A DNA stretch of 25,501 bases, taken from a virus. How positions within the stretch are numbered: position 1 is the stretch's first letter; every line of letters starts with the position of its first letter. The notes beneath the pieces are model-generated. The model did no database searches. It had not been told where the DNA came from and saw only the letters and a list, made by a program, of their open reading frames with translations. Of the stretch, positions 5,629 through 25,501 are shown piece by piece. The translations under genes were made by a program, and so were the position numbers. The stretch covers positions 1-25,501 of IMG/VR virus record IMGVR_UViG_3300037502_001333; one strand, given 5' to 3'.

Positions 5629-7107
5629 ATGTATCTACCCATCAAGCTGCCGCCAGGCATTTACCGAAATGGCACTGAGTACCAGGCTGCTGGCCGCTGG
5701 TATGACGCCAACCTTGTGCGCTGGTACGAGAACACGCTGCGGCCCATTGGCGGCTGGCGCAAACGCTCCACTGCTCAGATGTCTGGGTCTTGCCGTGGCC
5801 TGATCACCTGGCGCGACAACAGCGCCAACCGCTGGATTGCTGCTGGCACGCATACCAAGCTGTATGTCATGAATGAGGCTGGCACGCTCAAGGAGATCAC
5901 GCCATCTGGCTTCACGGCAGGCGTGGCCAACTCCACCACACTGACAGGCTACGGCGCAAACGTCTATGGCTCTTTTGCCTATGGCGTGGCGCGGCCTGAC
6001 ACTGGCCAGCCCATCCCTGCCACCACCTGGAGCCTGGACAATTGGGGCGAGTATTTGGTGGCCTGCTCTAATGCCGATGGCAAGCTGTACGAGTGGCAGC
6101 TTGGCTTTTCCTCGCCTACGCTGGCAGCAGCCATTGCCAACGCACCAACGAACAACGAAGCCTTGCTGGTCACGCAAGAGCGCATCTTGTTTGCGCTCGG
6201 CGCTGGTGGCAACCCTCGCAAGGTGCAGTGGTGCGACCAGGAGAACAACACCCTTTGGACGCCTGCCACCGACAACCTGGCTGGTGACTACGAACTGGCC
6301 ACGCCTGGGTCACTCCTGGCTGGCAAGCGCGTCAAGGGTGTGAACCTGCTGTTTACCGATGTGGATGTGCACACAGCGCAGTATGTGGGTGCGCCATTCG
6401 TCTATGGCTTTGAGAAGGCTGGCTCGGGCTGTGGCCTGATCTCGGCTCAGTCAGTGGCTGCCATTGACACTGCGGCCATCTGGATGAGCAAGGCTGGCTT
6501 TTGGATTTATGACGGTTACGTCAAGCCCCTGCCAAGTGATGTAAGCGATTTTGTTTTTAAAGACATCAACTTGGCCCAGGCTTCCAAGATTTACTGTGTC
6601 CATAACAGTAAGTTTGGTGAAATCTGGTGGTATTACCCAAGCGGCGGCAGCAACGAGAACGACAGCTATGTCACGTTCAACTATCGTGAGAACCACTGGA
6701 ACATCGGCTCTCTGTCACGCACGGCTGGCACAGATTCTGGTGTGTTTACATACCCGCTGATGGTGTCCAGTGATGGCTACATCTACGAGCATGAAGTGGG
6801 CTTTGCCTATGACGGTGCGTCTGTTTACGCTGAGTCTGGGCCAGTGCAGCTTGGCAATGGCGACAACGTGATGGCTGTGCGCCAGGTTGTGCCGGATGAG
6901 TCAAACCTGGGCGATGCCGTGGTGTCGTTTACCAGCAGGCTGTACCCCACAGGGGCACAAACCTCATTTGGCCCGTATTCGGCAGCCAACCCCACCAGCG
7001 TGCGCTTTTCGGGCAGGCAGATCAACATGAAGGTGACAGGCGACACCCTGGCCGATTGGCGGGTTGGCGTGATGCGCCTTGACGCTGTGCCAATGGGCAA
7101 GCGATGA
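5629..7107 (+). CDS. Tail nozzle / DNA-stabilisation-like virion protein
   Basis: The frame is open further upstream, but the ATG at 5629 (M-Y-L-P-I-K-L-P-P-G-I) follows the previous stop by 5 nt and gives a sensible 492-residue protein. It is rich in beta strands and Trp/Tyr motifs recurring at intervals (R-G-L-I-T-W-R-D, T-T-W-S-L-D-N-W-G-E-Y-L, V-Q-W-C-D-Q-E-N-N-T-L-W, E-I-W-W-Y-Y-P, N-Y-R-E-N-H-W-N-I-G), suggesting a beta-propeller. This recalls P22 gp10 / T7 gp12-type tail hub or nozzle proteins of podoviruses, whose genes also precede ejection proteins. The family link is by pattern only; a homology or fold search is needed to settle it. No good ribosome site is visible before 5629. ATGA overlap with the next gene. 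Confidence 0.6.
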   Translation: MYLPIKLPPGIYRNGTEYQAAGRWYDANLVRWYENTLRPIGGWRKRSTAQMSGSCRGLITWRDNSANRWIAAGTHTKLYVMNEAGTLKEITPSGFTAGVANSTTLTGYGANVYGSFAYGVARPDTGQPIPATTWSLDNWGEYLVACSNADGKLYEWQLGFSSPTLAAAIANAPTNNEALLVTQERILFALGAGGNPRKVQWCDQENNTLWTPATDNLAGDYELATPGSLLAGKRVKGVNLLFTDVDVHTAQYVGAPFVYGFEKAGSGCGLISAQSVAAIDTAAIWMSKAGFWIYDGYVKPLPSDVSDFVFKDINLAQASKIYCVHNSKFGEIWWYYPSGGSNENDSYVTFNYRENHWNIGSLSRTAGTDSGVFTYPLMVSSDGYIYEHEVGFAYDGASVYAESGPVQLGNGDNVMAVRQVVPDESNLGDAVVSFTSRLYPTGAQTSFGPYSAANPTSVRFSGRQINMKVTGDTLADWRVGVMRLDAVPMGKR

Positions 7108-7472
7108 ACGATTTGGAGCATCTGAAGCGACTGCGCCACCATGTGGAGGCGGCATTAGAATACTCTGGAGGCACACACCATTTCGATGATGTCATTGAGA
7201 TGGTCAAGCAGAACAAGTTGCAGGTATGGCCTGCTGTCAATTCTGTGGTGCTCACTGAGATCATTGTCTATCCCAGGCTCAAGAATTTGCATTACTTCTT
7301 GGCTGGTGGCGACCTCGATGAACTCTCACGGATGCGACCGATGATCGAGTCCTGGGGCAAATCGATTGGATGCACCAGGGTGTCATTGGCAGGCCGCAGG
7401 GGCTGGGCCAAGACATTTTTGAAGGATGAGGGGTACAGCCCACAGTGGACTGTCCTTGCGAAGGCACTTTAG
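7104..7472 (+). CDS. GNAT-like small protein at the head of the ejection cassette
   Basis: A protein of 122 residues, ATGA-coupled to the nozzle-like gene. It alternates helices and strands in GNAT order: helix 1-35, strands V-V-L-T-E-I-I-V-Y and N-L-H-Y-F-L-A-G-G (about 48-69), a helix with W-G-K-S-I-G-C, then the strand T-R-V-S-L-A-G-R-R-G-W (91-101) and a C-terminal F-L-K-D-E-G-Y end. The canonical acetyl-CoA loop (Q/R-x-x-G-x-G/A) is not clearly present, so an active acetyltransferase is doubtful. Known parallel: podovirus T7 gp13 is a small protein with a GNAT-like look encoded next to the internal virion proteins. Similar placement suggests a virion assembly role. Confidence 0.6.
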   Translation: MNDLEHLKRLRHHVEAALEYSGGTHHFDDVIEMVKQNKLQVWPAVNSVVLTEIIVYPRLKNLHYFLAGGDLDELSRMRPMIESWGKSIGCTRVSLAGRRGWAKTFLKDEGYSPQWTVLAKAL

Positions 7473-7479
7473 GAGATAG

Positions 7480-8673
7480 ATGATGGCGACAGAACAGCAA
7501 ATCTTGTCATTCTTGCAAACACCCGGCTTGAGCGATCAGCAGATCGCCACCGAGTTGAACCGCATTGGCGCAACAGCGCAGCAGGTGTCGAACGTCACTG
7601 GCGTGCCAGTGGCTGAAGTGCAAAGCCGTATTGCTGCGGCAATGCCAGCAGCAACCACTGCGCGCCCAGCAGTTGAGCAAGGTCTGTTTGATTACTTGCA
7701 GACGCCAGGGCTGACAGATGCACAGATTGCTGCTGAGATTCAACGCTTGGGTGCATCAGCGCAGCAGGTGTCGAACGTCACTGGCGTGCCTGTCAACCAA
7801 GTCAACACCCGTGTTCAGACTGCCAACTACACGCCTGCCGAGAGAGGCTTTTTCAACTTCTTGCAAACGCCTGGCCTGACCGATGCGCAGATTGCTGCCG
7901 AAGCCAACAGGCTTGGCATTCTTCCGCAGCAGGTTTCGAACATTACAGGCGTGCCTCTTGCTGATGCGCAGAACCGATTCTTCACAGAATTCATGCGCAC
8001 ACCTGGTTTGACAGATGCGCAAATTGCTGCCGAGATGGCGCGGCTTGGCATCTCTCAGCAGCAAGTCTCAAGAATTACTGGCGTGCCAGTTCGTGATGTC
8101 ACCAACAGAGCCAACACGGCACTTCCATTTGCCAATGCTGGTGTGCCGTCCAACATGGGTACATACACGCCACCACCGGCAATGTCGCCAACGTCTGCGA
8201 CATTTGCCGAGAACTTCAACAATTACGTTTCGATCCCAATCGGCGCTCAATACAACCCCAACGTGACCGCTGGTGGTGCATCTCCTTACGGCCAGATCCG
8301 CGCCCAGATGCAGCCAATTGGAAACCCCTACGCTGGCACAGTGGGTGGCCAGTTCATGGGTGGCTATGACCCTACCATCTACGACCCCAACCTGTTCACA
8401 AACTTTGTGCAGCAGCGTGCAGATAAAGCAGCCGCTGATGCAGCAGCCACAGCAGCGCAACAGACTGCCATGGACTACGGCGGATTTGATGGTGGCTTGA
8501 TCACCAAGGTCATGGGGCCAAAGCCACCAACACCAGACGATGGCACGATGTTTGTCCAGAAAGGCGAGTACATCGTGAAGAAAGATGCCGTGAATAAATA
8601 TGGCAAGGGCTTGCTGGATAAGGTCAATGAAGGCAAGATTCCAGCAGGCAAGATGAAATCACTTTTGGGTTAA
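7480..8673 (+). CDS. Four-repeat internal virion protein candidate
   Basis: A protein of 397 residues preceded by AGGAG; ATG codons at 7480 and 7483 are both possible, and 7483 has the better spacing. Residues 11-210 hold four copies of a 40-residue helical module: F/Y-x-x-T-P-G-L-T/S-D-x-Q-I-A-x-E, then L/I-G, then Q-Q-V-S-N/R-V/I-T-G-V-P, then R (residues 11-50, 72-111, 127-166, 171-210). The module looks helix-turn-helix-like. Residues 211-330 are low in structure and Pro/Ala/Asn-rich. The C-terminus (G-T-M-F-V-Q-K-G-E-Y-I-V-K-K-D-A-V-N-K-Y) is a compact element I have seen ending other phage proteins. It is the first of five large consecutive genes before the terminator. Ejection or internal head protein is inferred from position. 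Confidence 0.6.
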   Translation: MMATEQQILSFLQTPGLSDQQIATELNRIGATAQQVSNVTGVPVAEVQSRIAAAMPAATTARPAVEQGLFDYLQTPGLTDAQIAAEIQRLGASAQQVSNVTGVPVNQVNTRVQTANYTPAERGFFNFLQTPGLTDAQIAAEANRLGILPQQVSNITGVPLADAQNRFFTEFMRTPGLTDAQIAAEMARLGISQQQVSRITGVPVRDVTNRANTALPFANAGVPSNMGTYTPPPAMSPTSATFAENFNNYVSIPIGAQYNPNVTAGGASPYGQIRAQMQPIGNPYAGTVGGQFMGGYDPTIYDPNLFTNFVQQRADKAAADAAATAAQQTAMDYGGFDGGLITKVMGPKPPTPDDGTMFVQKGEYIVKKDAVNKYGKGLLDKVNEGKIPAGKMKSLLG

Positions 8674-15647: not shown

Positions 15648-15836
15648 ATGACATCTGTTCACGACATCCGCACCATGGCCAAGCAGCACGGCATCAGCAT
15701 GAAGGCCGTTTGCTTGGAGGCCAAAATACAACAGCCCCAGGTCAGCAGGTGGCTGTCTGGGGCTGTCGATCCATTGTGGGGTTCAGTCAATCAGCTTGAG
15801 CAGGCTTTGCTCAAGCTGATCGCGGCTAAGGGCTGA
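15648..15836 (+). CDS. Small HTH (Cro/XRE-like) DNA-binding protein
   Basis: A protein of 62 residues: V-H-D-I-R-T-M-A-K-Q-H-G-I-S-M-K-A-V-C then I-Q-Q-P-Q-V-S-R-W-L-S-G at about 27-38, the recognition helix and following turn of a Cro/XRE-type helix-turn-helix, ending with a helix (V-N-Q-L-E-Q-A-L-L-K-L-I). The size is right for a Cro-like regulator. It is divergent from the minus-strand operon, as for a phage switch regulator. There is no clear ribosome site before the ATG. A TAAAAT box at 15636 lies only 6 nt before the start, so a nearly leaderless message is possible. It is convergent with the SSB gene, the two stop codons directly abutting. Confidence 0.75.
   Translation: MTSVHDIRTMAKQHGISMKAVCLEAKIQQPQVSRWLSGAVDPLWGSVNQLEQALLKLIAAKG
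15790..15820. repeat. Perfect 13-bp inverted repeat with 5-nt loop
   Basis: ATCAGCTTGAGCA, loop GGCTT, then its exact complement TGCTCAAGCTGAT. It lies in the last 50 nt of the HTH gene and just beyond the 3' end of the convergent SSB gene. No T run follows on either strand, so it is not a standard intrinsic terminator. Confidence 0.8.
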
Positions 15837-17779: not shown

Positions 17780-18574
17780 ATGTCCAACCCATTTCAAATA
17801 CTTGAGCCAACTTGCATCAGTTTTTCTGGCGGCAGGACATCGGCTTATATGCTCTATAAGGTGCTGGAGGCTCACCAGATGAGCCTGCCAGATGAGGCCG
17901 TGGTCTGCTTTGCCAACACGGGCAAAGAGGACGAGGCCACCTTAAAGTTTGTCCACGACTGCGCAACCCATTGGAACGTGCCAATCGTTTGGTTGGAGTA
18001 CCAGCGTGATGAGCCTGGCTACAAGATCGTGAACTTTGAGACAGCCAGCCGCAATGGTGAGCCATTTGAGGCGCTCATCAAAAAGAAAAATTACCTGCCC
18101 AATCCAATCGCCAGGTTTTGCACCGAGGAACTCAAGGTCAAAGCCATCAACAAGTATTTGCGTGATCAGGGCATTGACGCATCCACCATGGTCGGCATCC
18201 GCGCCGATGAACCAAGACGCATCAGCAAGCTGCGGCAGCGCGGCCTGTTGATTCCACTGTTTGATGCTGGCGTCACCCAAGATGCTGTCCAAACATTTTG
18301 GAAAGCGCAGTCATTTGATCTTGGCTTGCCATTTAGAAATGGCGTCACGCCTTTAGGCAACTGCGATTTGTGTTTTCTCAAAGGACCGCAGCAGATCATG
18401 GGGCTGATCAAAGACAACCCAGACCGCGCCACATGGTGGGCCAGCCAAGAGCAGGCAATAAACGCCACCTTCCGCAGTGATCGGCCATCCTATGGCCAGA
18501 TGCACAAGTTCCTGTCTGAGCAGTCAGATATGTTTGACAAAGCTGGCAGCGTTGAATGCTTCTGTGGGGACTGA
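17780..18574 (+). CDS. PP-loop ATPase of PAPS-reductase type, with cysteine cluster
   Basis: A protein of 264 residues, with the PP-loop S-F-S-G-G-R-T-S-A-Y-M at 14-24, the F-A-N-T-G strand at 44-48, F-C-T-E-E-L-K-V-K at 113-121 and G-I-R-A-D-E-P-R-R at 139-147, all marks of the phosphoadenosine phosphosulfate reductase/adenylylating family. Cys114, Cys195 and Cys198 (C-D-L-C) and Cys260 and Cys262 (C-F-C) suggest a bound metal or Fe-S cluster. Known relatives activate a substrate by adenylation; some insert sulfur into tRNA or DNA. Sulfate assimilation is unlikely in a phage replication operon. Nucleic-acid modification or a redox-dependent repair role is inference. No dndD/E-like genes are next to it. 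The ribosome site is weak, fitting coupling to the helicase. Confidence 0.8.
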   Translation: MSNPFQILEPTCISFSGGRTSAYMLYKVLEAHQMSLPDEAVVCFANTGKEDEATLKFVHDCATHWNVPIVWLEYQRDEPGYKIVNFETASRNGEPFEALIKKKNYLPNPIARFCTEELKVKAINKYLRDQGIDASTMVGIRADEPRRISKLRQRGLLIPLFDAGVTQDAVQTFWKAQSFDLGLPFRNGVTPLGNCDLCFLKGPQQIMGLIKDNPDRATWWASQEQAINATFRSDRPSYGQMHKFLSEQSDMFDKAGSVECFCGD

Positions 18575-19903: not shown

Positions 19904-22072
19904 ATGAGCAGTTTACCAGAGCAGATGCCCAATGCGTTTGCACAATCCCAAGCTGTTGCGCTGAAACTTGGCAACGTCTATCCAGACGCCAACTTCTGCA
20001 CATTCAGCGTCCAAAACAGCAAGAAGATCCCTCGAAAGCGTGATGGCAGCCAAGGCGTGGCCAGGGACACACCAGCCGAAGCCCTCTTTAACACTGAAGA
20101 CGTTTGGGGTATGGAGTCAATGCCCCATGGCGACTACTTTGGCCTGGTCTTGCAAAAGGCCGCAGTCATTCCAGACAAAGGCCACCTGGTGGTGCTGGAT
20201 GTTGACCTCAAACACAGCCAAACCACCACCAACATCGCCATCCAGAAGATGGCCAGGTGGGTCAAGTCCAACAATGCCCTGACAGAGATCTCTGTCTCAG
20301 GCAAGGGCCGCCACATTTTCTTGATCGCCAACAAGGCCGAGAACATCTTGCCCAAGTACAAGCTGGCGGCAGGCCAGGAGGTCGAGGTCTTTGGCCTCGA
20401 CAACAGCGCAGGCAAGTCGGTGCTACTGAGTGGCTCTCAACTCTCTGGCGAGGTCATCGAGGTCGAAGACCTCCACGCCCTTTTCACCGAGTGGGGGATC
20501 ATCGAGCAGCACGATTTGAACCAGCCAAAGTCAGAACCCATTGATTTCTCACCGCTGGAGCGCAAAGCACCAAGCCCAGCCATTCAGCCGCAAGCCCCAG
20601 ATGACATCTACAAGGCCGCCAGCGCCATGATGTTCATCAGCCCAGATATTGAGTACGACCAATGGATCGCCATCGGCCAAGCCCTGCACACAGCGTTTGG
20701 CGGTCAAGGCCATGACCTTTGGCATCAATGGTCAGCATCCGGCAGCAAGTACAAAGGCCCACAGGACATCGAAAGCCACTGGAAGTCATTCCACCAAGGC
20801 AAAGGCATTGGCCTTGGTACGCTGTTTCATACAGCAAAGCAAAACGGCTGGGAGCCACCGACAAAGGCGTCTGAGCGCAAATCAGCCGTGGAAGATTTCC
20901 AAAACATATTGAGTGCAGTACCTGTTGCGACAGGCTCACCAGATGAGCCACTGCCATTGAATGCCTTGCAAGGCTGGCCAGAACTGGAACTCGACATCAC
21001 CAGCCTGAAGCCCATTGATTACCTCATACAAGGTTTCTGGGCGCATTCCTTCTTTGTCTTGGCTGGCCAGCCAGGTGTTGGCAAGACCACGGCCATGATC
21101 TCAGCCTGCATGGTCATGGCAGGGTTTCAGATCTCTGACACCACCGTCACGGCCAAGATCAGGCGCAAAACCATCTTTGTGACCGAGGATTCAGACCAGA
21201 TCACCCGCACCCTGTTTGCCTATGCCAAGCACTTCAAGATCCAGCCAAAAGAACTTCTGAACTGGTTTGTGGTCATTGATGCCAAACGCTCAGACGTCAA
21301 AGATCTCTTGACCCTGGCCCACAATGTGATGCGCCACACGGTCAACGGCATACGCCCTCACCTTGTCTTGGACACCGCAAACAGCACCATGGCCATCGAC
21401 AACGAGAACGACAACTCCGAGGTTGGCAGCTACTTGGCGGCCCTAAAGCAGACCATCTACGTTCAGCTTCACACGCCCATATCCATCCTGACCCACACCA
21501 ACAAGACCATCAGCCGCCAGGACTCAGACGCCATGGCCCGTGGAGCCAGTGCCTTCACAGGTGATGCAACCCTGACAGGCATCCTGTTCATGGACCCAGA
21601 TGGCACGCGCTACATGAAGCTGACAAAAACCCGGTATGAGCCAGATTTCAGGGAAATCAGGTTTGAGACCCAGCTATTCCCAGAAATAGTCATTGACCAG
21701 CACGGTGAGCCGCAGACCATGCTGTGCCGCATTGCAGTCCCATATCCATCAGCCGAAGAAACCCGCAAGCAACTCCAAGCCGAAAAACAGGAAGATAAGC
21801 AGAACCAAAAGATCCAGGACAAATGCGATAAGGCCGTTTTGTTTGTCCAGGACATCATCAACCAGCACCAGTTGGTCACCATCCGCAAGGGCAGCAATTG
21901 CCCCAAAAACCCGCCGCCTGAACTGGCCAACCACTACCAACTGGAGTGGTCAGAGATCTATGCAAACGTGCCAGGCTCGGACCGCAGCGACACCAGAAAG
22001 GCCATCGGCGCGGCCATTTTCAGAAACTTCAACCCGACAGATTTGAACAACCTGTGGGTCCAGTTGGCATGA
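19904..22072 (+). CDS. Bifunctional primase-helicase (prim-pol, PriCT-2, RecA-like ATPase)
   Basis: A protein of 722 residues. The prim-pol domain (about 1-200) carries V-L-D-V-D-L-K at 97-103 (Asp99, Asp101) and S-G-K-G-R-H-I-F at 132-139 (His137). About 230-320 matches a PriCT-2 domain (Y-D-Q-W-I-A-I-G-Q-A-L-H, W-S-A-S-G-S-K-Y, W-K-S-F). About 365-600 is a RepA/AAA_25-like ATPase: Walker A G-Q-P-G-V-G-K-T-T at 388-396, then H-L-V-L-D-T-A-N-S and S-I-L-T-H-T-N-K-T. The remaining C-terminus is Lys/Gln-rich helical and winged-helix-like. It would synthesise primers and unwind DNA at the fork. No separate DNA polymerase is present in the window. The ribosome site is uncertain (AAGGA 13 nt upstream or GAGAGAA nearer). 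The stop overlaps the next ATG by 4 nt. Confidence 0.88.
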   Translation: MSSLPEQMPNAFAQSQAVALKLGNVYPDANFCTFSVQNSKKIPRKRDGSQGVARDTPAEALFNTEDVWGMESMPHGDYFGLVLQKAAVIPDKGHLVVLDVDLKHSQTTTNIAIQKMARWVKSNNALTEISVSGKGRHIFLIANKAENILPKYKLAAGQEVEVFGLDNSAGKSVLLSGSQLSGEVIEVEDLHALFTEWGIIEQHDLNQPKSEPIDFSPLERKAPSPAIQPQAPDDIYKAASAMMFISPDIEYDQWIAIGQALHTAFGGQGHDLWHQWSASGSKYKGPQDIESHWKSFHQGKGIGLGTLFHTAKQNGWEPPTKASERKSAVEDFQNILSAVPVATGSPDEPLPLNALQGWPELELDITSLKPIDYLIQGFWAHSFFVLAGQPGVGKTTAMISACMVMAGFQISDTTVTAKIRRKTIFVTEDSDQITRTLFAYAKHFKIQPKELLNWFVVIDAKRSDVKDLLTLAHNVMRHTVNGIRPHLVLDTANSTMAIDNENDNSEVGSYLAALKQTIYVQLHTPISILTHTNKTISRQDSDAMARGASAFTGDATLTGILFMDPDGTRYMKLTKTRYEPDFREIRFETQLFPEIVIDQHGEPQTMLCRIAVPYPSAEETRKQLQAEKQEDKQNQKIQDKCDKAVLFVQDIINQHQLVTIRKGSNCPKNPPPELANHYQLEWSEIYANVPGSDRSDTRKAIGAAIFRNFNPTDLNNLWVQLA

Positions 22073-22242
22073 TCTTGGGCGCACAAAACATGGCCGCTAA
22101 AGTCGACCGGACGGCCGGACAGTCGACCGGACGTCCGGTCGTCCGGTCGACAGCCAAATGCCCGGAGTGTGATGATGGATATGCACACATATGTGTGCAT
22201 TCCATCTCCACGCATGGGAGAGATTTTTCATCTAAAAGTTGA
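22069..22242 (+). CDS. Small Cys-motif protein overlapping an octamer repeat array
   Basis: A frame of 57 residues in ATGA overlap with the primase-helicase. It begins M-I-L-G-A-Q-N-M-A-A-K, then V-D-R-T-A-G-Q-S-T-G-R-P-V-V-R-S-T, which is simply the translation of the GACCGGAC repeats, then C-P-E-C-D-D-G-Y-A-H-I-C-V-H, a possible zinc-binding knuckle (C-x-x-C, later C-x-x-H), and ends with I-S-T-H-G-R-D-F-S-S-K-S. The overlap and Cys/His motif support a real gene; the repeat-encoded middle suggests DNA constraints on the sequence. If it is not translated, the whole 22073-22340 segment is an intergenic repeat region. Confidence 0.5.
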   Translation: MILGAQNMAAKVDRTAGQSTGRPVVRSTAKCPECDDGYAHICVHSISTHGRDFSSKS

Positions 22243-22282
22243 CCGGACGACCGGACAAAATCCTTTGGGGTGTCCGGTCGAC
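22102..22282. repeat. Array of GACCGGAC octamers in both orientations
   Basis: Exact GACCGGAC at 22105, 22125, 22241 and 22249 and its complement GTCCGGTC at 22133, 22141 and 22272, plus a near copy GGCCGGAC at 22113. The copies at 22125-22140 form a perfect 16-bp palindrome, and GTCGACCGGAC (22122-22132) is mirrored exactly at 22141-22151. The right group forms a stem from AAAAGT-T-GACCGGAC (22234-22248) with GTCCGGTCGACTTTT (22272-22286), one G-T pair, followed by another T, terminator-like. No other copies were noticed elsewhere in the window by eye. Confidence 0.85.
22181..22200. repeat. Perfect 20-bp palindrome
   Basis: ATGCACACATATGTGTGCAT reads the same on both strands. It lies between the left and right GACCGGAC groups, inside the small Cys-motif frame. 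A dimeric regulator site or a cruciform are possible; there is no loop, so it is not a terminator. Confidence 0.8.
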
Positions 22283-22661: not shown

Positions 22662-23023
22662 GAAAAAGCATTGAACACACTGAACAGGTCAAGCTGGTGC
22701 AGCGGGTCAGAGCCTTCTATCCAGATGTCATCATTGCCTCGATACCGAATGGAGGCGATAGAACGGCCTCAGAGCGCGTTAGGCTGCACAGTGAGGGTGT
22801 ACTGGCTGGAATGCCTGATTTGTGCGTCCTGGAGGCTTGTGGTGGCTTCCATGGGCTGTTTGTGGAGATGAAGACAGCAACAGGGCAGCAGAGCAAAGAG
22901 CAAAAGGCTTTGCAGTTGCAATTAAACAACAGAGGCTATCTGTGCACCGTGGCCAGATCAGCCGCTGAAGGCTTTGAAATCATTAAGGGGTACTTGAATG
23001 GCGAAAGCAAACACACTGGCTGA
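22646..23023 (+). CDS. VRR-NUC family nuclease (Holliday-junction-resolvase-like)
   Basis: The ATG at 22646 is chosen (125 residues); the frame is open well upstream, but that part overlaps the previous gene. The VRR-NUC motifs are in order: H-T-E-Q at 11-14, I-P-N-G-G-D-R-T at 33-40, G-V-L-A-G-M-P-D-L at 51-59 (Asp58), F-V-E-M-K at 72-76 (Glu74, Lys76), Q-S-K-E-Q at 82-86, L-N-N-R-G-Y-L-C. These make up the PD-(D/E)xK catalytic site. Phage VRR-NUC proteins are proposed structure-specific endonucleases that resolve branched DNA before packaging, consistent with the terminase gene that follows with a 26-nt overlap. Confidence 0.85.
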   Translation: MVARLRKSIEHTEQVKLVQRVRAFYPDVIIASIPNGGDRTASERVRLHSEGVLAGMPDLCVLEACGGFHGLFVEMKTATGQQSKEQKALQLQLNNRGYLCTVARSAAEGFEIIKGYLNGESKHTG

Positions 23024-23498
23024 ATGGGCTGACAACATTGCAGACAGACAGATGAGCCAGAAAGACAAAGCCAGCGTTGCACGCAAGGAAGCCTCAGACG
23101 TCAACAAGAAGATCCACCAGTTCGGTGGCGAAATGGCCATCGTCGACAGACTATCCCAAGGGGAAACAGTGTTGGGGTTGGCTCGGACGCTGGGGATAAG
23201 TCACACCGCTTTTTACGATTGGGTGGACAGAGGGGGCGAGGCACGCGCTGCTGCCCTCGCGCGTGCGCGCGCCCGTGGTGGGCAGAGTTTAGCCGAGCAG
23301 ACGCTGGACATCGCCGACAGCGCATCACCGCAAGAGGCGCAGGTGGCCAAGCTGCGGGTGGACACCAGGCGCTGGCTGGCCAGCAAGATGGCTCCTGACG
23401 AGTACGGTGACAAGCAGCAGCCGCTGGTCAACATCGACCTGGGCAGCATGGCGCTCGATGCGCTGCGCAAACGCAGCATTACGCATACCGAAGACTGA
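22998..23498 (+). CDS. Terminase small subunit (Sf6 gp1-like)
   Basis: A protein of 166 residues with AAGGGG about 7 nt before its ATG. The middle holds a helix-turn-helix, I-V-D-R-L-S-Q-G-E-T-V-L-G-L-A-R-T-L-G-I then S-H-T-A-F-Y-D-W-V-D at 48-77. The C-terminal half has A-K-L-R-V-D-T-R-R-W-L-A-S-K-M-A-P-D-E-Y at 117-136, a signature of this small-terminase family. It would bind the packaging site and regulate the large subunit. The large subunit gene is not adjacent: about 1.4 kb with a repeat-rich non-coding segment and six small genes separate them. Confidence 0.85.
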   Translation: MAKANTLAEWADNIADRQMSQKDKASVARKEASDVNKKIHQFGGEMAIVDRLSQGETVLGLARTLGISHTAFYDWVDRGGEARAAALARARARGGQSLAEQTLDIADSASPQEAQVAKLRVDTRRWLASKMAPDEYGDKQQPLVNIDLGSMALDALRKRSITHTED

Positions 23499-23864
23499 CG
23501 CTGCTGCACACAACGTCCATTATGTAAAGTCGCTCTTGAGTTATCCACAGATTTAGGAATACGTTAGGCGTAGCTTCTGAGTTATCCACAGGAATCTGTG
23601 GATAAGTGTGGACAAAAGCCTGTGGACAGGTGACTGCCGCCAGCCTGGCGATCTGGCCGCGACCCCCCCCATGGGCCGCGCGGCGGGGGCGCGGCTGTGG
23701 CGGTGCTTAACCTACATCCCCAACATCCCTGAAAAAAAATTTTTTAAGTGTGTTGGAAATGTGGCGCAGCCCTGAAAAAATTTTTGAGTTAATTTCCCCC
23801 AACCACTTGCACCGCTTCATCAACTTGACTTAAACTGCAATTCCCTTCAACCAGGAGTAAACCG
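23499..23864. other. Gene-free 366-bp segment with DnaA boxes: candidate replication origin
   Basis: No gene is visible here. It contains three perfect DnaA boxes TTATCCACA: plus strand at 23541-23549 and 23582-23590, minus strand at 23597-23605. Variants TTGTCCACA (minus, 23607-23615) and CTGTCCACA (minus, 23621-23629) follow. Boxes two and three form the inverted repeat TTATCCACAG-GAAT-CTGTGGATAA. TGAGTTATCCACAG is repeated at 23537 and 23578, 41 nt apart. A GC-rich hairpin follows (CCGCG-a-CCCCC with GGGGGCGCGG, 23657-23694). Then come two A-tract/T-tract elements, CCCTGAAAAAAAATTTTTT (23727-23745) and CCCTGAAAAAATTTTTG (23770-23786). DnaA boxes with A/T-rich DNA nearby are typical of bacterial and plasmid origins; that this one works is inference. 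A weak promoter TTGCAC-N18-TAAACT (from 23807) may serve the next gene. Confidence 0.7.
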
Positions 23865-24936: not shown

Positions 24937-24945
24937 TTGACGCCT

Positions 24946-25501
24946 ATGGCAAAAACAGAAAATGTGTTTCAGCAGTGGGTGGACAGGTATCACCCAGACC
25001 CGGTGCTGTTTGTGCGTGAGGTGCTGGGGGTAGATCCTGACCCCTGGCAGGTGAAGTTCTTGGGGGCGATTGCCCGTGGGGACAGGAAGATCAGCGTGCG
25101 CAGTGGCCACGGGGTGGGAAAGTCAACAGCATCAAGCTGGGCCATGCTGTGGTACTTCATGACCCGCAGCCCGGTAAAGGTGGTGGTGACAGCGCCGACT
25201 AGCAGCCAACTGTATGACGCCATGTTTGCTGAACTCAAACGCTGGATCAACGCTATGCCGCTGCCATTGCAGGGGCTGCTGACTGTCAAGCAAGAGCGTA
25301 TTGAGTTCAACGCTGCGCCCACTGAGATGTTTATCTCGGCCCGAACTTCAAGGGCCGAGCAGCCTGAAGCGTTGCAGGGTATTCACTCTGAGTATGTGAT
25401 GCTGGTGGCCGATGAGGCGTCAGGTGTGCCGGAGCAGGTGTTTGAGGCGGCGGCTGGGTCGATGTCTGGACACAATGCTGTGACCTTATTACTTGGCAAC
25501 C
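24946..25501 (+). CDS. Terminase large subunit, 3' end outside window
   Basis: 185 codons are present and the gene runs off the right edge. ATPase motifs: Walker A S-G-H-G-V-G-K-S-T at 53-61, the strand V-V-T-A-P-T-S-S-Q at 80-88, Walker B V-M-L-V-A-D-E-A at 151-158 (Asp156, Glu157). The adenine-binding region F-V-R-E-V-L-G and D-P-W-Q precede it. This is the packaging motor ATPase of tailed phages; the nuclease domain should follow outside. The start codon is ATG at 24946 without a strong ribosome site. The small subunit is 1.4 kb upstream. Confidence 0.92.
   Translation, partial: MAKTENVFQQWVDRYHPDPVLFVREVLGVDPDPWQVKFLGAIARGDRKISVRSGHGVGKSTASSWAMLWYFMTRSPVKVVVTAPTSSQLYDAMFAELKRWINAMPLPLQGLLTVKQERIEFNAAPTEMFISARTSRAEQPEALQGIHSEYVMLVADEASGVPEQVFEAAAGSMSGHNAVTLLLGN

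Follow-up and report, generated by a model that had tools for sequence, protein, structure and literature searches.

What use a tailed phage might make of a dense group of host DnaA boxes lying between its terminase genes is the question raised by a 25.5-kb virus fragment, which we analysed over its full length of 25,501 bp (referred to as the window; Table 1). The preliminary description had proposed either a DnaA-dependent origin or a trap for host DnaA. Its account of the letters was accurate: three exact boxes (two plus, one minus) and two near-copies within about 90 bp, a 14-bp direct repeat (TGAGTTATCCACAG) with a spacing of 41 bp, a 10-bp inverted repeat (TTATCCACAG/CTGTGGATAA) and a nearby primase-helicase gene are all present, and the array lies in gene-free DNA between the two terminase genes, in an interval that also holds small ORFs. 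The density far exceeds chance, as had been claimed: none of 300 Markov-shuffled windows contained three exact boxes anywhere, and hence none did within 100 bp. The record has no exact box besides these three. Two further elements had been overlooked, namely a 28-bp Xer-like site and an iteron array (22102-22282).

Table 1. Positions of the features discussed, in window coordinates.
Feature	Position	Strand	Basis or remark
RepA-like primase-helicase, PriCT_2 + AAA_25 domains, primase/polymerase-like N-terminal part	19904-22072	+	Pfam, PHROGs
Exchangeable C-terminal part of primase-helicase (~90 residues)	21809-22072	+	comparison with L041
Iteron array 1, GTCGACCGGAC units, direct then inverted	22102-22151		core of likely origin
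Perfect palindrome ATGCACACATATGTGTGCAT	22181-22200		
Iteron array 2, two direct units and one inverted	22241-22282		
Small terminase subunit, Sf6-like	22998-23498	+	Pfam PF20901
Predicted XerC/XerD (dif/psi-like) site, 28 bp	23503-23530	+	published-dif matrix; conserved in relatives
XerC arm GCTGCACACAA	23503-23513	+	
Central hexamer CGTCCA	23514-23519	+	
XerD arm TTATGTAAAGT	23520-23530	+	
DnaA box 1, exact TTATCCACA	23541-23549	+	begins 10 bp past XerD arm
DnaA box 2, exact TTATCCACA	23582-23590	+	41 bp from box 1
DnaA box 3, exact TTATCCACA, inverted	23597-23605	-	15 bp from box 2
DnaA box 4, TTGTCCACA, one mismatch	23607-23615	-	
DnaA box 5, CTGTCCACA, two mismatches	23621-23629	-	
GC-rich stretch 3' of boxes	23655-23700		alignment: conserved in the window's phage group
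A-tract/T-tract AAAAAAAATTTTTT	23731-23746		in nearly all aligned relatives
Large terminase subunit, cut by window end	24937-25501	+	

Other Pfam identifications in the window comprise an Enc34-type ssDNA-binding protein, an SNF2-type helicase, DUF2800 and a VRR-NUC nuclease. A PAPS-reductase-like gene (17780-18574) sits inside the replication module, and a small Cro/C1-like helix-turn-helix protein (15648-15836; weak match) hints at a lysogenic switch. A search of 13 related contigs, including a complete genome, gave no match to the DNA polymerase A family.

The Xer-like site has the 11 + 6 + 11 layout of dif, and its arms match XerC and XerD sites. Scored against a matrix derived solely from the arms of 31 published chromosomal dif sites, it reached 23.1 bits and ranked first in the window, the next distinct site scoring 3.1; shuffled windows (n = 60) gave a maximum of 18.5 and a mean of 4.1 bits. 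It likewise ranked first in all 14 module-bearing contigs. Each contig scanned has one strong site, with the exception of G715, in which two copies tie for the top score, 36.3 kb apart, at both contig ends. Across relatives the block standing 10 bp before box 1 reads (A/G)CTTTATACAA-NGNCCA-TTATGTTAAGT, corresponding to GCTGCACACAA-CGTCCA-TTATGTAAAGT in the window, and it is better conserved than the adjoining coding DNA.

These arms are nearly those of Burkholderiales dif sites. The dif of Rhodoferax ferrireducens is ACTTGATACGA-TGTATA-TTATGTTAAGT, and that of Bordetella ends with TTATGTAAAGT (PMC2731167); by sequence identity to these published sites, the XerD arm of the window equals that of Bordetella and the arm of most relatives equals that of Rhodoferax. 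The central hexamer differs, being NGNYCA in the phages and TGTATA in dif, with TG or TGT on the XerC side common to dif and some relatives. No DnaA box lies within 300 bp of the single host dif examined, a chromosomal one (L315); the contig of this dif-like site (about 1501-1528, in a Burkholderiales genome) also holds a PriCT_2 protein match at a distance of about 17 kb. Because the phage site matches dif, we infer that XerC and XerD act at it, and the host is probably a Burkholderiales bacterium, an assignment for which the Xer arms are the sole basis.

IMG/VR scans revealed that the Xer site and the DnaA boxes occur as one module of fixed spacing, with boxes at +38, +79 and +94. A consensus Xer pattern derived from the window's family, from which the boxes were excluded, gave at least about 166 matches; of the matches listed, every one except L189 has DnaA boxes behind it, and the offsets agree in nearly every case. 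In a converse scan with the inverted box pair, the XerD-arm motif was present in 103 of the 105 matches listed with enough upstream DNA. Two loci among the matches listed, L250 (8591-8613) and L278, have the same inverted DnaA-box pair and no Xer site. Among 48 non-redundant modules (less than 85% identical to one another), 44 have box 1 at +38 when up to two mismatches are allowed, 40 have box 2 at +79 and 36 have box 3 at +94, and boxes 4 and 5 occur in 21 and 28, respectively. Both arms and box 1 are conserved (0.91, 0.97 and 0.89), whereas the spacers are not (0.54-0.57). With the primase-helicase as query, 22 and then 80 of 240 related IMG/VR loci were found, and all of these that reach far enough have the terminase-side cluster with box spacings of 41 and 15. 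The DNA of the module gave no convincing match in phage and plasmid collections.

The module also recurs in differing gene orders and beside different replicases and large terminases. About 47 loci among the matches listed lack a RepA homologue despite enough flanking DNA; the module stands alongside a Toprim/AAA_25 protein in L146, and in L300 a VapE-like primase-helicase (6096-8267) replaces the RepA-like one amid the same neighbouring genes while the module is kept. At the level of sequence comparison, these results establish the existence of the module and its portability across phage groups: many freshwater phages carry a conserved, predicted Xer-DnaA module. One contig assigned to a published Acidimicrobium MAG (L038) represents a phage of the window's group and was probably mis-binned.

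Large terminases near the modules belong to at least two families and lie on either strand, at distances of about 0.2 to over 2 kb. A DnaA-dependent control of terminase-gene transcription or packaging would account for the presence of a large terminase gene within 3.5 kb in 74 of the 78 modules with 3.5-kb flanks, but the variable strand and distance fit a shared spacer better than a promoter, and we regard such control as extremely improbable.

Binding of host DnaA to the array is well supported by comparison, the boxes being kept in position and sequence across the 48 modules while the spacers are not. To this extent the host-DnaA reading of the preliminary description stands, and the expectation that relatives would conserve the boxes is borne out; its placing of an origin at the cluster is not supported, as set out below. 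Clusters of the datA type are dense in DnaA boxes, and with five box-like sites, three of them exact, in 90 bp, the array could likewise slow or steer host replication, either by titrating DnaA as a decoy or by reactivating it as a DARS-like element. Such an element, like a pure DnaA trap, leaves the fixed linkage to the Xer site across phage groups unexplained, and one or two copies per genome titrate little before late infection; we consider it very improbable. A candidate IHF site between boxes 1 and 2 was dropped: allowing at most one mismatch, it occurred in 5 of 48 modules versus 16 of 400 control pieces, which is not clear enrichment, and it is not conserved. Inspection by eye revealed no evident DnaA-trio or unwinding elements near the boxes. 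Beyond them, a conserved GC-rich stretch (GC fraction 0.83 at 23640-23699) is followed by A-tracts, the two together spanning 23655-23790.

The likely origin lies at the iterons, another tight repeat cluster, directly 3' of the primase-helicase gene. Iteron units are about 11 bp long and type-specific, with TAATCCGGTAG, TAATGCGGAAC and AGTAAACCGGT in relatives and GTCGACCGGAC in the window. The GC-skew minimum of the window falls at 22053, and in 9 of 9 contigs of its group the detrended minimum lies 49-336 bp before the iteron array or its first box, with the caveat that GC skew may also reflect gene content. Third-codon-position skew flips sign at the iterons although the genes all lie on one strand. 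This strong but indirect evidence suggests that the origin of the window's phage group is likely the iteron array just behind the primase-helicase gene. Within this group the skew minimum is about 1.4 kb upstream of the DnaA-box array, and in five single-module contigs of other groups (G711, G712, G714, G717 and G722) it is 5-9 kb from the module, so that, judged by skew, the module would not be their origin. An origin at the cluster itself was rejected because of these skew positions and because the module is kept with replicases of a different kind.

A second DnaA array of the origin, working with the iterons 1.4 kb away, is a subtler possibility, for which plasmid P1 provides a model, either of its two DnaA-box arrays being able to serve (PMC4980987). 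Relatives have boxes at both places with fixed spacing: those on the iteron side follow the primase-helicase stop codon, typically at +93, +225 and +236, and are absent only in the window and L001, which have lost them and keep the terminase-side ones. Just three exact boxes in 15 whole contigs fall outside these two places. P1 oriR and RK2 oriV combine iterons and host DnaA boxes near an element-encoded initiator (PMC4980987), and the A-tract near the present array, one of the window's least stable segments, would offer weakly paired DNA. However, the second array here is tied to an Xer site rather than to the initiator, independently of which it moves, the skew minimum lies at the iterons and, in the five other-group contigs, kilobases from a module that is kept with unrelated replicases, and MW202879 has iteron-side boxes only. 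We therefore judge a bipartite origin unlikely. Some 70-100 bp past the primase-helicase stop in L109 and others, the first DnaA box is directly adjoined by a GC-rich hairpin (e.g. AAGTGGGG...CCCCACTT) whose two strands change in concert (AAGTAGGG/CCTACTT, AAATGGGG/CCCATTT); the palindrome of the window lies near the position of this hairpin, without an adjoining box.

The primase-helicase itself offers a candidate initiator domain. Between L041 and the window, its C-terminal part is 46% identical and the remainder 96%, and the iterons of L041 differ; residues GSDRSDTRKAIG of this part vary with iteron type. This co-variation with iteron type is an indirect sign that the domain may bind the iterons. 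Its AlphaFold model (mean pLDDT 79.5) gave no PDB match. Domain and iterons (21809-22151) appear to have been swapped together between L041 and the window, and the residues of the likely recognition helix, which follow iteron type, would represent a natural specificity code. PICIs, P4 and pRN1 also place the origin directly 3' of a primase-helicase gene, and PICIs have two iteron sets (PMC6092414, PMC4234260); the present system differs in its RepA-like AAA_25 helicase and in the DnaA boxes that most relatives add.

The Xer site and the DnaA array probably, though by no means certainly, constitute one module for recombination by host XerCD, most likely for multimer resolution. Use of the host enzymes accords with the lack of any PF00589 tyrosine recombinase in the 28 contigs examined. 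Host XerC and XerD would occupy the arms and carry out recombination between a pair of sites, and host DnaA on the XerD-side array would shape, license or time the reaction; the likeliest purpose would be the conversion of circular phage genome multimers to monomers, the task of cer and psi in plasmids. Replication would begin at the iterons, bound by the C-terminal domain of the primase-helicase. A role for DnaA as an accessory factor is suggested by the fixed spacing and the co-occurrence with the Xer site. That DnaA is a genuine Xer accessory, the XerD-side complex restricting or timing strand exchange and thereby coupling genome resolution or integration to the replication state of the host, is a more tentative proposal, which we rate as slightly less likely than not. 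L189 without boxes, and L250 and L278 without an Xer site, all among the matches listed, count against the module reading, and we saw neither a partition gene nor a convincing lysogeny gene, which counts against multimer resolution.

Attachment is a competing purpose for such a site: the host dif would be the target at which XerCD insert the phage genome, and the DnaA boxes would tune integration or excision to the host replication cycle. No phage integrase of the PF00589 tyrosine recombinase family was found in 28 contigs, the arms match Burkholderiales dif sites, and filamentous phages and Jorvik use XerCD in this way (PMC4246890, PMC5357621, PMC10589892). CTXphi, VGJphi, TLCphi and Jorvik share with the window's phage a dif-like site and the lack of an integrase, but they are filamentous or membrane-containing and integrate into chromosomal dif-like sites; the excerpts available of the reports describing them mention no DnaA array. 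Here, the phage-type site was present in 0 of 301 genomes of the G256 family, and the only match in 399 genomes of the order is an apparent chromosomal dif, although the host of the phage may lie outside both sets. Integrated close relatives or prophages were not found in genome contigs or Burkholderiales samples. The only named relative covering the RepA protein, MW202879 (L023), lacks the Xer site and the terminase-side boxes, and a serine resolvase gene (MW202879.1, 966-1634) stands in place of the relatives' Xer-DnaA module. Three observations lead us to favour multimer resolution over integration: the centre is unlike that of dif, no integrated copy appeared in about 700 Burkholderiales genomes, and MW202879 has a resolvase at the same place. 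Attachment we consider distinctly unlikely.

Among known systems, psi has an array occupied by the host DNA-binding protein ArcA, and in cer and psi it is the XerC arm that is flanked by accessory sequences; in sites of this type these serve ArgR, ArcA or PepA. The present site resembles psi (pSC101) and cer (ColE1) in its two 11-bp arms, short centre, host recombinases and adjoining host-protein array (PMC5357621). It differs in that the array consists of DnaA boxes and lies on the XerD side, which counts against our preferred reading, in that the carrier is a tailed phage, and in that recombination is predicted only. Neither accessory arrays at Xer sites nor the use of XerCD by phages is new; the literature searched yielded no Xer site tied to a DnaA-box array and common to tailed phages whose replicases differ.

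If the proposed role is correct, DnaA would be added to the partners of Xer recombination, alongside ArgR, ArcA, PepA and FtsK, and a widely shared, portable phage module would unite the initiator of the cell with its dimer-resolution machinery. Many uncultured freshwater phages would then exploit two host systems, replication initiation and dimer resolution, in one way, which would explain how circular genomes are managed in tailed phages without an integrase.
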